From a virus, in IMG/VR virus record IMGVR_UViG_3300034355_000059, positions 1 to 38,180 of that record: 38,180 nucleotides of DNA; one strand, given 5' to 3'. The notes below the pieces were generated by a model, which was not told the origin of the DNA, ran no database searches, and saw only the letters and a list, made by a program, of their open reading frames with translations. Shown here piece by piece: positions 2,438 through 38,180 of this stretch; within the stretch, counting starts at the first letter, position 1, and each line of letters opens with the position of its first letter. Made by a program: the position numbers and the translations under genes.

Positions 2438-2466
2438 TTGACTTTTTAGTAAAAGTGTGGTATAAT
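2438..2466 (+). promoter_or_regulatory. Sigma-70 promoter for scaffold/capsid unit
   Basis: TTGACT at 2438-2443, a 17-base spacer, and TATAAT at 2461-2466. The -10 box is preceded by TGG, giving an extended -10 (TGTGGTATAAT). It lies directly after the portal stop and in front of four genes that end at the terminator at 4794. The predicted start is near 2473, at the edge of the dyad at 2475. Matches the host sigma-70 consensus at 11 of 12 positions. Confidence 0.9.
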
Positions 2467-2474
2467 TAATACAT

Positions 2475-2492
2475 TGTTGTAGAAATACAACA
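2475..2492 (+). promoter_or_regulatory. Perfect 18-bp dyad at start of capsid transcript
   Basis: TGTTGTA-GAAA-TACAACA: a perfect 7-bp inverted repeat with a 4-base centre, starting 9 bases after the -10 box. In RNA it would be a 5' terminal stem with a stable GAAA tetraloop. In DNA it would be an operator covering the transcription start. The same arms recur at 36331, 35950 and 36000. Which level it works at cannot be told from sequence. Confidence 0.8.
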
Positions 2493-2514
2493 CAGTCCTA
2501 CATAAGGAGAAACT

Positions 2515-2745
2515 GTGGATAAAGAATTACAAGCCTATTACGAGGCTAGATTTGACATGATGACCTCTAAAGGATGGCATGACCTCCTAGAGGACCTAAG
2601 TAAGGTAGCTGAAGTGTCAAGGGATTTAGACAGGTGTACCAGCGTAGAGGATCTGTACTACGCCAAAGGACAACTAGACATCCTGAACTTCATTCTTAAG
2701 CTTAAACAAGCGTCTGAGGATGCTTATGACGAGCTTTCAGCATGA
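2515..2745 (+). CDS. Small helical protein upstream of scaffold
   Basis: 76 residues with GTG start at 2515, preceded by AAGGAG. Mostly predicted helix, with charged N and C termini and a single Cys. It is the first gene after the 2438 promoter and overlaps the next gene by 4 bases (ATGA), so the two are probably translationally coupled. Small proteins of this sort are common beside the scaffold gene in podoviruses, but I do not know a function. Confidence 0.8.
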   Translation: MDKELQAYYEARFDMMTSKGWHDLLEDLSKVAEVSRDLDRCTSVEDLYYAKGQLDILNFILKLKQASEDAYDELSA

Positions 2746-22202: not shown

Positions 22203-22298
22203 GACATCAACTACTAGGTAGTTTGTTCCCTCCTCTGGGTCTTGTACATACTCTGCTCCACACATAATACCACAGATAAAGTTTAGTTCGATCATCAT
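22170..22298 (-). CDS. Tiny hydrophobic protein at end of leftward operon
   Basis: 42 residues (MMIELNFICGIMCGAEYVQD...). Its ATG overlaps the RNR stop by 4 bases (ATGA), so it can be translated by coupling. The 3' end runs 33 bases into the lysozyme gene on the opposite strand. The pattern (short hydrophobic start, GAEYVQDPEEG, then VVDVLFLRILFSW) resembles very short proteins I recall in other aquatic podoviruses. A second ATG directly follows the first. Confidence 0.55.
   Translation of the reverse strand: MMIELNFICGIMCGAEYVQDPEEGTNYLVVDVLFLRILFSWD
22209..22223. terminator. Weak hairpin between converging lysis and RNR ends
   Basis: AACTAC-TAG-GTAGTT followed by TGTT: a 6-bp stem with 3-base loop just after the lysozyme stop, at the point where the two halves of the genome converge. 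Too AT-rich and U-poor to be certain. On the minus strand it lies inside the 42-residue gene. Confidence 0.35.
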
Positions 22299-24184
22299 AT
22301 TTCACAGTGCCCCGCTACGCAGGCTAGGGTCTGCGCTCCCTCTACGTTGTCATCTTCTTCCTTCAGATTCTCCCATATAATATCTTTAGGCATCTTAGAT
22401 AGAAGCTCCTCGTACTGCTCTTTAGTACACTCCTCGTATGGTGCTTGACGATAAGAGCCTCCATCCCAAGGCAGAAATGAGATACCACTAAGCTCATCGA
22501 AGTTCCTCCACACCCAAGCCCCTACGTCCATCCACTCGTCTTCCTTGACAGAGATAGTCACTGAAGGCTTGTGCTCACACCAGTGACGCTGATACATCAA
22601 CCACAGGTCTAGGTGCTGCATAGCTGTCAGATCATCACGAGTACGAGAAGACTCTGGTGCTTTGACTGGGAATGAGAAGACTGCTGTGTTGTCTGGTCTC
22701 ATCACACAGTCCTCTGTAGGCACACCTGAGTCTGTTAAGAACTGGGTTAGCGGGTCTTTCTTATCACCACGAACACGGCGAATATAATACTGACTATGTC
22801 GAGTATGAATACCAGAGGCGCTATTAACAAGTTGAGACACAGTGCCAGAAGGTTTAACACAAGTGATCGCAGCAGACACAGGAATTCCCAACTGTGCTGC
22901 AAACTCATTATTGGTATTAACGGAGACATCCCGTAAGTATTCAAGAGATTGCGTAGTGCTTTCACATACCCTCCCCATCCAAGGATTATCTAAGATACCA
23001 GTTAACGATACACCAAGTAAACGCTCATCCTCAGTGTTCTTCTGCCACACCTTACGCAGGTACGGGAAGTGCGTCATAGTGCTCTGGAACGTGCCTAAGA
23101 TTGTAGCAATCCTGACCTTCTTAGCCAAGTCTGCTACAGTATCTTCTGCTCGGACAACAACCTCAGTAAGGTTGCAAAACTGGTAGGGACGGAGGATGAT
23201 TTCTGAGCAGGGATTAGTACCGAAGTCGTAATCAGGATTCCTTCGTCCGTTCTTTTTGCTTTGATTGACTGAGGCTTCTCTACTAAAAATCCCTCTTTCA
23301 CCAGAGTGACTGTTATACAGGCTCGTCCACTCTTGCAGAAACTGTCCAATGTCTGGTTTAGAAGTGTAAGCTGCTGAGTTGTTAGCGAGTGCTCTGTGTC
23401 CATTTTGTTCCCACCAATTTCCTGATTTACAAGACCGCATACGGTCATCCTCGAGGTCCGACAAGCTGATCATTGCAGATCTTCGTACTCCACCGACAAC
23501 AACAACTTCCCCGATTTTACAGAGAAGATCATGACACTCGATTGATGTAAGTTTTCTACCCACTGCTCCTCTGAACTTGGCGATAGTGAACTTAAAAAGC
23601 TCATCCAAAGGTCCTGGACCAGAGGCACGTCCTCCAAAAGTTTTGAGTCTGGCTCCTGCAGGTCGAATTCTATTAAGATCGTATTTTGCAACTTCCCCAG
23701 AGTATAGTAAAGCGATGAGTTGGCGTAGTGCTTTGGCCCATCCTTCTTTTGAATCCGCAACCGAAATAGTAGTCTGAGAATCAAACAACTGATCCGGGAC
23801 TTCAGGCAATTGATCGACATATTTATGCTCCACAGAAAAGCCTACACCAGTACCACAGAGTAGGATGTACATAGCCTCGTCAAAGGCTTTAGGGTCATCG
23901 ATAGGTAGGTAGCTGCAATTGTAGCCAGCAGTGTTGTCACGGTCTAGAGCCTTGCCAGCAGTCATGATAGCCCTCATGGATGGCATAACATCCAGGTTCT
24001 TGACAGCACTGGTAAGCTCTGCTCGTAGCTCCTCGTTAGGAGAGAACTTGTACTTCTCTTGTAAGTGATTAAACATAAAGGTGAAGTATCGATCTACTGA
24101 TTCTTCCCAGTGTTCACGGCGATTCTTCTCAGGTAGGAACCGACTGTAACGGCTCTTAGCAATAAACTGTTGATAGTAATCCAT
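22295..24184 (-). CDS. nrdJ: Class II (B12-dependent) ribonucleotide reductase
   Basis: 629 residues from ATG 24184 (a TTG at 24199 adds five codons but is weaker). Reduces ribonucleoside triphosphates to deoxynucleotides with adenosylcobalamin. It shows the RTPR cysteines: C90 (GYNCS) and C337 as redox pair, C326 in NPCSEII as thiyl radical site with N324 and E328, and C622-x4-C627 at the very end as the shuttle. The spacings C326-C337 (11) and C622-C627 (5) equal those I recall for the Lactobacillus leichmannii enzyme (408/419, 731/736). About 110 residues shorter than that enzyme, about 50 of them between the first two sites. It lets the phage make dNTPs if the host supplies or imports B12. 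Confidence 0.93.
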   Translation of the reverse strand: MDYYQQFIAKSRYSRFLPEKNRREHWEESVDRYFTFMFNHLQEKYKFSPNEELRAELTSAVKNLDVMPSMRAIMTAGKALDRDNTAGYNCSYLPIDDPKAFDEAMYILLCGTGVGFSVEHKYVDQLPEVPDQLFDSQTTISVADSKEGWAKALRQLIALLYSGEVAKYDLNRIRPAGARLKTFGGRASGPGPLDELFKFTIAKFRGAVGRKLTSIECHDLLCKIGEVVVVGGVRRSAMISLSDLEDDRMRSCKSGNWWEQNGHRALANNSAAYTSKPDIGQFLQEWTSLYNSHSGERGIFSREASVNQSKKNGRRNPDYDFGTNPCSEIILRPYQFCNLTEVVVRAEDTVADLAKKVRIATILGTFQSTMTHFPYLRKVWQKNTEDERLLGVSLTGILDNPWMGRVCESTTQSLEYLRDVSVNTNNEFAAQLGIPVSAAITCVKPSGTVSQLVNSASGIHTRHSQYYIRRVRGDKKDPLTQFLTDSGVPTEDCVMRPDNTAVFSFPVKAPESSRTRDDLTAMQHLDLWLMYQRHWCEHKPSVTISVKEDEWMDVGAWVWRNFDELSGISFLPWDGGSYRQAPYEECTKEQYEELLSKMPKDIIWENLKEEDDNVEGAQTLACVAGHCEI

Positions 24185-24351
24185 TATATATTTTCCCAAT
24201 TAACTAGCGACTCTAATCTGTCTGCATTGTCTTCAATAATATCATCAAACCTTTCAACTATATCCTCTGAACGGATTGACAACTCCTCTATGAGTGTTAA
24301 CTCATCCCACCTCTTCATGCGCTCCTTTATCTCTTCTAATGTTAAGGCCAT
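24184..24351 (-). CDS. Small acidic helical protein upstream of RNR
   Basis: 55 residues, strongly charged (EEIKERMKRWDE, SEDIVERFDDIIEDN), predicted helix. TAA overlaps the RNR ATG (TAATG), so the two are coupled. The ATG at 24351 has no ribosome binding site and lies within 3 bases of a strong -10 box. An internal ATG at 24318 behind AAAGGAGCGC is an alternative start giving 44 residues. Function unknown. Confidence 0.6.
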   Translation of the reverse strand: MALTLEEIKERMKRWDELTLIEELSIRSEDIVERFDDIIEDNADRLESLVNWENI

Positions 24352-35949: not shown

Positions 35950-35967
35950 TGTGGTATCTATACAACA
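35950..35967 (+). promoter_or_regulatory. 18-bp dyad, copy A (operator-like)
   Basis: TGTGGTA-TCTA-TACAACA. Same 7-4-7 layout as the perfect dyad at 2475, with one arm base changed (TGTGGTA for TGTTGTA). Flanking bases also match copy B, so that 23 bases repeat with two differences. Confidence 0.7.
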
Positions 35968-35976
35968 CTATCTAAT

Positions 35977-35991
35977 TGATAATCATTCTCA
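35977..35991 (+). promoter_or_regulatory. Fur-box-like sequence
   Basis: TGATAAT-C-ATTCTCA matches the 7-1-7 Fur consensus TGATAAT-N-ATTATCA at 13 of 14 arm positions. It lies exactly midway between the two dyads (centres 35958.5, 35984 and 36008.5). In AT-rich DNA this could be chance. Confidence 0.35.
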
Positions 35992-35999
35992 TTAGCATC

Positions 36000-36017
36000 T
36001 GTGGTATAAATACAACA
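36000..36017 (+). promoter_or_regulatory. 18-bp dyad, copy B (operator-like)
   Basis: TGTGGTA-TAAA-TACAACA, 50 bp from copy A centre to centre. TGGTATAAA could also act as a rightward extended -10, though no -35 is visible. Confidence 0.7.
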
Positions 36018-36047
36018 CTATTCCTTTATCTGTATATCTGCATAGAC

Positions 36048-36059
36048 GGGGGAGGGGGG
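36048..36059 (+). other. G-rich tract
   Basis: GGGGGAGGGGGG in otherwise AT-rich DNA: 11 G in 12 bases on the plus strand, followed by TG. No other such tract is seen in the window. It may mark a packaging or replication site, or only a composition outlier. Confidence 0.7.
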
Positions 36060-36298
36060 TGCTATAGAGTTGTAATATTATGAGGACCCTACAACACAGA
36101 TGAGAGGTCAAAATAGGAATTAAATAGTCAAGAAACCTATCTAAATAGTACGAAATAGGGCTGAATTACCACTATAGAAAAGTCCTTATAAATCAATAAC
36201 TTAGGTTTATGCAGTCCACCCCTGCAGATCTTAATAAAAAAGGACAGGCTATCCAGTACTCTCCAAGCCCTATATAGGGACAGAACAGTAGAAAAGAC

Positions 36299-36327
36299 TT
36301 GACAAATCTCTAAAAATATGCTATAAT
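36299..36327 (+). promoter_or_regulatory. Perfect sigma-70 promoter for terminase unit
   Basis: TTGACA (36299-36304), 17 bases, TATAAT (36322-36327): 12 of 12 consensus bases. The predicted start near 36334 lies within the dyad at 36331, with a leader of about 175 bases before terS. Drives terS, terL and, across the junction, portal. Confidence 0.92.
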
Positions 36328-36330
36328 AGG

Positions 36331-36348
36331 TGTTGTAGTAAAGCAACA
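36331..36348 (+). promoter_or_regulatory. 18-bp dyad at start of terminase transcript
   Basis: TGTTGTA-GTAA-AGCAACA. Left arm identical to that at 2475, right arm 5 of 7. Placed at about -3 to +15 of the predicted start. Confidence 0.65.
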
Positions 36349-36508: not shown

Positions 36509-36937
36509 GTGTCAAACACTGAACCTCTGTCTGATGTGTCTGTGTCCCCTTCAAAGAGGAAACGTGGCAGACCCCGTAAGGCAGACATTGAAGCCAAGAA
36601 GAATAGAAATGTAGTAGGAAGACCTCCAGGTGAGGCGGCTAGGATAAAAGAATTCTATGCTCGTTTACTGTCCACTTCAGGTGAGAAGGTAATCGAGACT
36701 GTCCTGCGTAAAGCGATGGACGATGCTGATAAGGATCAGGTTGCCTGTCTTAAGATGTGTATCGATAGGCTACTGCCCCTCAGTCACTTTGAGAAGCAGG
36801 GCCAGGGTAGGGCTGGTGCTATTCAGGTACAGATTGTTACCACTGGTACACCCCAGATAGCTGCCAGGGAAACAGAACAGATTGACTATGAAGTAGTTGA
36901 TGTGGACCCCGAAGGGGCCTCTGAGGAGACCAAATAA
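36509..36937 (+). CDS. terS: Small terminase subunit
   Basis: 142 residues, GTG start at 36509 behind AGAGGAGAATTTA. The N-terminus holds an AT-hook-like run, KRKRGRPRKADIE, and a second basic GRP motif (VVGRPPG), then a helical middle (YARLLSTSGEKVIETVLRKAM, DQVACLKMCIDRLLP) typical of TerS oligomer formation, and an acidic C-terminus (VDVDPEGASEETK) for contact with TerL. It recognises phage DNA and starts packaging. The stop overlaps none of terL; terL ATG follows directly. The AT hooks fit the AT-rich leader just upstream as binding region. Confidence 0.82.
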   Translation: MSNTEPLSDVSVSPSKRKRGRPRKADIEAKKNRNVVGRPPGEAARIKEFYARLLSTSGEKVIETVLRKAMDDADKDQVACLKMCIDRLLPLSHFEKQGQGRAGAIQVQIVTTGTPQIAARETEQIDYEVVDVDPEGASEETK

Positions 36938-38180
36938 ATGGCAAACCTTAGAGTCGAACTACATCCAAAGCAGACGGAAGTATTTAATGATAATCATCGC
37001 TTTAAAGTGGTTGCTGCAGGACGAAGATTTGGAAAGTCTCGCCTTGCTGCTTGGACCCTCATCATTGAGGCTTTAAAAAGTAAAGAGAAGGATGTCTTCT
37101 ATGTTGCCCCAACTTTTCAGCAAGCTAAAGACATTATGTGGACGGTTCTTAAAGAGCTTGGACACGAAGTTATCAAAACTGTCCACGAGAATACGGCGGT
37201 AATAACTTTAGTAAATGATAGGAAGATCTATCTAAAAGGGTCTGATAGACCAGATACGATGCGAGGTGTGGGTCTGGCGTATGTCGTGATTGACGAGTAC
37301 GCTGACATGAAGCCCCAGGTGTTTGAGCAGATCCTTAGACCAGCACTGTCAGATGTAAAGGGTGGAGCACTGTTCATTGGTACACCAAAGGGCAGGAATC
37401 ACTTCTACGAGTTGTACCAGATGGCTCAGAAGGATGAAGATGAAGATTGGTCCTCGTTTCACTTTACTTCTTTTGATAACCCTCTTCTCGATCCTAAAGA
37501 GATTGAGGCTGCAAAGAAGTCAATGTCTTCCTTCAGTTTTAGACAGGAATACCTTGCTAGTTTCGAGGCCGCTGCGTCAGACCTATTTAAGGATGAATGG
37601 ATTAAGTATGTTGATTCTGATGATTTGCCTGACGACGGTAGTTATTACATCGCTGTTGATCTGGCTGGCTTTGAAGATGTAAGCAAGCAGGCTGGTAACA
37701 AGAGGAAGAATCTTGACGAGTCTGCTATAGCTGTGGTCAAGGTTTGTCAGGATGGATGGTTCGTAGATACGATAGTGGCGGGTAGATGGGACATCAAAGA
37801 AACAGCTTTAAAAATACTAGACACAGCAAAAAGTTACGATGTGCGATTAATAGGTATAGAGCGGGGAATGGCCAAGAACGCCGTACTCCCGTACCTACAA
37901 GACTTGATGAGGAGGAAGAACTATTTCTTGTCAGTGATAGATCTGACTCATGGGAACAAGAAGAAGACGGACCGTATAGTATGGGCATTACAGGGTCGCT
38001 TCGAGCATGGAAGGATTAGCTTAGTTAGAGGCGAGTGGAATAAGCAGTTTGTAGACCAGCTTCTTAACTTCCCTAACCCGCAGGTCCACGATGACCTAAT
38101 AGATGCCTTGGCCTACATCGATCAGATTGGTGTCACAGAGTTTGTTGGAGTACTGGATGAAGAAGAATACGAAGCCTTAG
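36938..38180 (+). CDS. terL: Large terminase subunit, N-terminal part (continues at position 2)
   Basis: Packaging motor ATPase and nuclease, 420 residues once joined across the ends. ATPase: VVAAGRRFGKS (Walker A, 24-34), YVVIDEYADM (Walker B, 115-124, with catalytic E120) and LFIGTPKG (coupling motif, 145-152). Nuclease: YYIAVDLAG (D241), LIGIERGMAKN (E308) and VHDDLID (D385/D386, in the left fragment). Shorter than T7 gp19 (about 586) but all catalytic motifs are present. Direct start after terS; ATG at 36938. The last 143 bases repeat the left end. Confidence 0.95.
   Translation, partial: MANLRVELHPKQTEVFNDNHRFKVVAAGRRFGKSRLAAWTLIIEALKSKEKDVFYVAPTFQQAKDIMWTVLKELGHEVIKTVHENTAVITLVNDRKIYLKGSDRPDTMRGVGLAYVVIDEYADMKPQVFEQILRPALSDVKGGALFIGTPKGRNHFYELYQMAQKDEDEDWSSFHFTSFDNPLLDPKEIEAAKKSMSSFSFRQEYLASFEAAASDLFKDEWIKYVDSDDLPDDGSYYIAVDLAGFEDVSKQAGNKRKNLDESAIAVVKVCQDGWFVDTIVAGRWDIKETALKILDTAKSYDVRLIGIERGMAKNAVLPYLQDLMRRKNYFLSVIDLTHGNKKKTDRIVWALQGRFEHGRISLVRGEWNKQFVDQLLNFPNPQVHDDLIDALAYIDQIGVTEFVGVLDEEEYEAL
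36990..37008 (+). repeat. ATAATCATC/CTTTAAAGT repeat, copy 2
   Basis: ATAATCATC-G-CTTTAAAGT at codons 18-24 of terL. The two copies flank terS, the usual place for terminase recognition sites in headful phages, but this copy is constrained by coding. Confidence 0.5.
38038..38180. repeat. Right copy of terminal direct repeat
   Basis: Second copy of the 143-base terminal overlap. The single mismatch at 38164 changes an Asp codon (GAC, left copy) to a Glu codon (GAA, right copy) in the C-terminal tail of the large terminase. A conservative change of this kind points to two closely related genomes in the sample rather than random error. Confidence 0.95.

Follow-up and report, generated by a model that had tools for sequence, protein, structure and literature searches.

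Candidate sites for a host outer-membrane regulator in the control region and on the late promoter of a T7-like lake phage

Introduction

The tectivirus GIL01 employs LexA of its host as a repressor (PMC9700832). With the T7-like podophages (Autographiviridae and relatives), the phage studied here has replication genes of T7 type in common. The timing of late genes in T7-like phages that have no RNA polymerase is an open question.

The DNA analysed was the whole of virus record IMGVR_UViG_3300034355_000059 (38,180 bases; called the window below), which derives from a T7-like lake phage. An original prediction made on this DNA had described an operator-like dyad of 7-4-7 layout at four sites, with a site for a host regulator as one of its alternatives. 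From comparison with related phages and with bacterial genomes, we consider it moderately likely that a host regulator of outer-membrane barrel genes binds the palindrome TGTTGYA-N4-TRCAACA, and that the phage sites serve the timing of late genes.

Materials and methods

The relatives of the window were 160 metagenome loci, for which the DNA polymerase and the portal had served as queries; individual loci are designated by L numbers. Counts of the palindrome, of Fur and Zur boxes and of a panel of regulator consensuses in the relatives were compared with shuffles of single bases within 100-base blocks. Dyad counts in the window were compared with dinucleotide shuffles. Bacterial and archaeal genomes were scanned with TGTTGYATWWATRCAACA. 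TGTTGYA-N4-TRCAACA was counted in samples of Methylophilaceae and Pelagibacteraceae genomes, each drawn from the whole family, and in two class-level samples, with a reversed control in each family.

Results

Gene content of the window

The window codes for a T7-like DNA polymerase, primase-helicase, exonuclease and single-stranded DNA-binding protein, for a ribonucleotide reductase, and for portal, capsid and tail proteins. Its leftward and rightward gene arms diverge at about 35.8-36.5 kb. Among the window proteins tested, no phage RNA polymerase was found and no transcription-regulator domain was recognised, in line with the earlier statement that a regulator gene is not visible; several small early proteins carry no known domain.

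For the ribonucleotide reductase gene (22295-24199), the nearest DNA matches among phage records were Streptomyces phages. The predicted small terminase subunit opens with an AT-hook-like KRKRGRPRK (36509-36600). At the ends of the record, positions 1-143 and 38037-38180 share at least 100 identical bases from their start, followed by at least one difference, and the large terminase gene seems to span the cut. Portal searches of genomes from 399 Burkholderiales and 187 Methylophilaceae found no close homologue, a result that is neutral as to the host.

The dyad copies and their promoters

The features discussed are listed in Table 1. The copy at 2475 is the sole perfect 7-4-7 dyad of the window. 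When up to three mismatches were allowed, 9 matches were found, whereas dinucleotide shuffles gave a mean of 2.5 and none of 100 reached 9; shuffling, proposed at the outset as a possible refutation, gave no comparable counts. Both arms of TGTTGYA-N4-TRCAACA, around its variable 4-base centre, are present in full at 2475 and with a single G at arm position 4 at 35950 and 36000; the agreement is partial at 36331.

Table 1. Dyads, promoters and neighbouring features of the window.
Feature	Sequence	Position	Strand	Remarks
Late promoter	TTGACT-N17-TATAAT	2438..2466	+	ahead of the scaffold/capsid unit (first late gene past the portal); kept in 18 aligned relatives
Perfect dyad	TGTTGTAGAAATACAACA	2475..2492	+	where the transcript is expected to start; may be an operator, a 5' RNA hairpin or both
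Remaining conserved leader	CAGTCCT...AGGAGAAACTGTG	2493..2517	+	able to fold over the ribosome-binding site
Control-region dyad	TGTGGTATCTATACAACA	35950..35967	.	one mismatch (left arm TGTGGTA); class kept in relatives, where the centre varies; G-tract distance about -98
Fur-box-like sequence	ATTGATAATCATTCTCATT	35975..35993	.	between the two control-region dyads; 15 of 16 fixed positions of AATGANAATNATTNTCATT; missed in the original prediction
Control-region dyad	TGTGGTATAAATACAACA	36000..36017	.	one mismatch (left arm TGTGGTA); 18 of 18 to TGTKGYATWWATRCMACA; about -48 from the G-tract
G-tract	GGGGGAGGGGGG	36048..36059	+	control-region landmark in relatives, beside dyads there; missed in the original prediction
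Promoter of terminase/portal unit	TTGACA-N17-TATAAT	36299..36327	+	
Weak dyad copy	TGTTGTAGTAAAGCAACA	36331..36348	+	two mismatches; expected start; without conservation

The copies at 2475 and 36331 begin 14 and 9 bases past the start of a TATAAT that has a TTGAC-type -35 at a 17-base spacing. They overlap the -35 to +20 promoter region and lie near the expected transcript starts of the capsid and packaging units, as had been described. The other two copies were confirmed between the early and late arms and do not overlap a promoter in this way: no -35 at the proper distance from 35950 or 36000 was seen on inspection by eye, and no clear consensus leftward early promoter was found close to them.

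Two parts of the earlier description had to be given up. The copy at 36331 was dropped as a full dyad member because the relatives do not keep it (this position holds TGTAGTAGAAAAACAACA or nothing), so that three of the four proposed sites stand, each within one base of the dyad, and the fourth is weaker. The TGTGGTA half-sites at -10 boxes are present but belong to the extended -10 consensus TGTGGTATAAT, which is kept by dyad-less relatives too, and were ruled out as operator parts.

Conservation of the palindrome in relatives

The non-coding DNA of the 160 related loci held 49 sites of TGTTGYA-N4-TRCAACA, against 0 (0.0) in ten shuffles, an enrichment that is partly circular, as the consensus was drawn from these phages and the relatives are not independent. 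The dyad, whose absence from relatives would have spoken against an operator, recurs there. In the control region its centres vary (TCTA, TTTA, TAAA, AAAA, TATT and TTTT), arm position 4 is G or T and arm position 6 is C or T. Relative to the G-tract, many of the palindromes lie at about -20, -50 or -98. After the portal gene, TGTTGTAGAAATACAACA is unchanged in most relatives with a portal identity of at least 78%.

The register on the late promoter differs among clades. The palindrome lies at +1 in the clade of the window, over the -10 in L129, L131, L140 and L149, and in the spacer in L145, L160 and L162. In the last two registers it is mostly outside the transcript, and an operator is therefore favoured. 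The late promoter of many relatives has no palindrome, which counts against the operator reading.

The G-tract has the form G5AG6, which resembles the G-tract of mitochondrial CSB II; at 36048-36059 and at homologous places it is a possible replication or R-loop element.

Pairing and folding at the late leader

The original prediction had offered a 5' RNA stem with a GAAA tetraloop as an alternative for the dyad. As a common explanation it was rejected for the control-region sites, where at least one impossible pair occurs in 17 of 19 and the centres vary; shuffles fold better than the copy at 36000 (z +1.2). At the +1 sites, all seven pairs are standard in 14 of 15 and the centre is GAAA in 14, whereas over the -10 in other clades the centres are different. 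Because impossible pairs occur in 17 of 19 control-region sites against 1 of 15 +1 sites, and because the leader is conserved, the upstream dyads are, as judged from pairing, DNA sites, and the dyad at 2475 could double as a 5' RNA hairpin. There is no support for placing the four copies in one class, as had been done: the upstream pair, the 2475 copy in its conserved leader and the unconserved 36331 copy stand apart.

In a stronger form, the 2475 dyad would be a 5'-terminal RNA hairpin, capped by a GAAA tetraloop, which protects the late mRNA or acts together with a second hairpin, over the ribosome-binding site, to tune how the first late gene is translated; its resemblance to the upstream sites would then be secondary. 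We regard this as somewhat unlikely, taking its two forms together. The position of 2475 at the transcript start is predicted from that of the promoter, and the copy can fold as RNA. In the aligned relatives the late leader is conserved past the dyad, through CAGTCCT and AGGAGAAACTGTG, and in the window it folds as two hairpins, but with a modest advantage over shuffles (z -1.7; 12 of 200 as good). Arm variation at the +1 sites is scant and consists of one-sided G-U changes, with which L107 and the 36331 copy still pair; L092 loses the top pair. These near-invariant GAAA centres in a conserved leader are RNA-element-like and speak against the host-regulator reading. On the other side, the arms at 2475 agree with the host palindrome described below at 14 of 14 positions, the palindrome of other clades lies in the largely untranscribed registers given above, and a hairpin gives no account of the control-region copies.

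The start codon of the first late gene, under the second hairpin (2493-2517), is GTG in the window and often TTG in relatives.

The palindrome upstream of porin genes in bacteria

Among the matches listed in the bacterial and archaeal scan, eight, all from Pelagibacteraceae, share one orthologous gap flanked by a DUF3576 gene and a porin-like gene; their arms are kept and their centres changed. TGTTGYA-N4-TRCAACA was carried by 72 of 120 Methylophilaceae genomes (reversed control, 5) and by 36 of 147 Pelagibacteraceae genomes (reversed control, 1); the class-level samples gave 22 of 190 (control, 7) and 23 of 185 (control, 5).

Host loci from Methylophilaceae and the two classes numbered 114, and 27 of these were inside long coding frames. 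Downstream of the remaining loci were 35 members of one barrel-protein cluster, 8 Porin_O_P, 4 Porin_4 and 3 MlaA genes; TonB receptors and OmpA-type proteins were also found downstream of host palindromes. Pfam recognises part of the large barrel cluster, and most of its other members begin with a signal-peptide-like sequence and have an aromatic residue at the C terminus. On inspection by eye, a plausible -35 follows the palindrome in Methylophilaceae; that the host copies precede the promoter instead of sitting on it counts against the host-regulator reading.

The occurrence of the palindrome at porin, TonB-receptor, MlaA and OmpA-type genes (L401-L476, L524-L563) points to a widespread outer-membrane regulator. 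We know of no named regulator for it. Since bacteria have the palindrome ahead of porin genes as a regulatory element of their own, the host-regulator alternative of the original prediction became the favoured one, and the idea of an operator-like site that works without a phage regulator gained support. The phage sites probably bind this host regulator of outer-membrane genes, as an operator or as a titration device.

Boxes of known host regulators in the phage family

External consensuses were also enriched in the non-coding DNA of the relatives (observed against shuffled: Fur, 26 and 0.7; Zur, 7 and 0.3; LexA, 7 and 0.3; DnaA, 48 and 3.1), and 14 other regulator consensuses had zero matches there. 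An OxyR-like motif (36 against 11) and TGTA-N8-TACA (7 against 3.9, with shuffles reaching 8) were too degenerate for interpretation. Fur-like boxes numbered 18 in 128 kb of non-coding DNA and 7 in 1457 kb of coding DNA of the relatives.

Of 35 such G-tract regions, 31 contained one or more boxes of the five kinds covered by the scan, some of the Fur matches being doubtful as they lie rightward in AT-rich DNA; those near +365 of the G-tract were discounted as AT-rich, low-complexity DNA. Sequence related to the Fur-like box at 35975 occupies the equivalent place in L085 and L009. Fur-like boxes are present at the late +1 of L123, L132 and L139, and L132 combines a Fur box with Zur boxes that match at 16 to 18 of the 18 positions. 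LexA-box-like sequences (16-18 of 20) were seen left of the G-tract, often adjoining AGGGNNAACCCTAA, in L005, L021, L073, L074, L098, L104 and L109, and DnaA-box arrays (TTATCCACA) within or close to the control region of L139, L121, L073, L157 and L124.

Discussion

Host factors are proposed to bind the boxes because none of the window proteins tested has a recognised regulator domain. The targets of the palindrome's regulator in Proteobacteria would be porins, OprO/P-type porins, TonB receptors, MlaA and OmpA-type proteins. The phage family would place sites for this regulator in the early/late control region and on the late core promoter, and Fur, Zur, LexA and DnaA boxes would fill comparable control-region positions in relatives. 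Early in infection the host factor would sit on the late promoter, in whichever of the three registers the clade has, and restrain late transcription; as phage DNA multiplies, its many sites would titrate the factor and the late promoter would open. Such a timer, with the binding, repression and titration that we infer for it, would need no phage gene.

The boxes may instead be decoys. Phage DNA would then titrate host repressors (the porin regulator, Fur, Zur, LexA and DnaA) and alter host expression, for example of nutrient uptake or host replication, rather than act on phage promoters. Several boxes per genome far from any clear promoter, and the mixture of unrelated host regulators, would fit this; the late core promoters carry boxes too, which a pure decoy does not need, and each genome has few of them (one to five). 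We judge this reading unlikely.

Less likely again is that the control region is a replication origin, with the boxes and the G-tract as its parts and the host proteins as architectural factors or roadblocks. It would suit the universal G-tract of form G5AG6 and the DnaA boxes of L139, which lie at -19 and -49 from the G-tract, the distances of palindromes elsewhere (-20 and -50). To our knowledge, LexA, Zur and Fur have no role in phage origins, and the late-promoter copies would be left unexplained. The decoy and origin readings can be combined.

Binding of the dyad by one of the small early phage proteins of unknown fold, for which the several such proteins without a known domain are candidates, is very unlikely, given that bacteria themselves conserve the palindrome and that relatives carry boxes of known host factors at comparable positions.

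With the host-regulator reading preferred, the comparisons suggest that the phage times its genes by borrowing host regulators or by soaking them up. We hold more tentatively, and at less than even confidence, the broader proposal that in a lytic T7-like family without RNA polymerase the early/late switch consists of exchangeable host-regulator boxes (porin regulator, Fur, Zur, LexA and DnaA) read by titration, and that the data also expose an unnamed, widespread SAR11/Methylophilaceae porin regulator. A timer made of host sites, if true, would answer how late genes are timed in these phages. Exchange of boxes among relatives, if true, would show which host regulators are exploitable and may aid host prediction. 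On the host side, the conserved porin-upstream palindrome in two abundant aquatic bacterial groups would belong to an outer-membrane regulator unmatched to known ones. In a literature search with most subscription papers outside its reach, no precedent was found for Fur plus Zur sites, or for several host boxes, in one phage genome.

The window phage differs from the T7-like podophages in its two oppositely transcribed arms, with no RNA polymerase among the proteins tested, and its portal is remote from those of isolates (best identity about 25%). As is proposed here, a phage promoter of GIL01 is under a host repressor that acts on operators carried by the phage; however, GIL01 is temperate and has the co-repressor gp7, whereas the present family has no known co-repressor and has several unrelated candidate host boxes swapped among relatives (PMC9700832 for GIL01). 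Matches to the consensuses of the Proteobacterial Fur, Zur, LexA and DnaA boxes recur in the family's non-coding DNA, but here the boxes are predicted and lie on phage DNA. The porin-upstream palindrome of Pelagibacteraceae and Methylophilaceae has the same arms (TGTTGYA and TRCAACA) and variable 4-base centre as that of the phage; in the host it lies, as judged by eye, well upstream of the porin promoter, whereas the phage copies precede the early arm or sit on late promoters.
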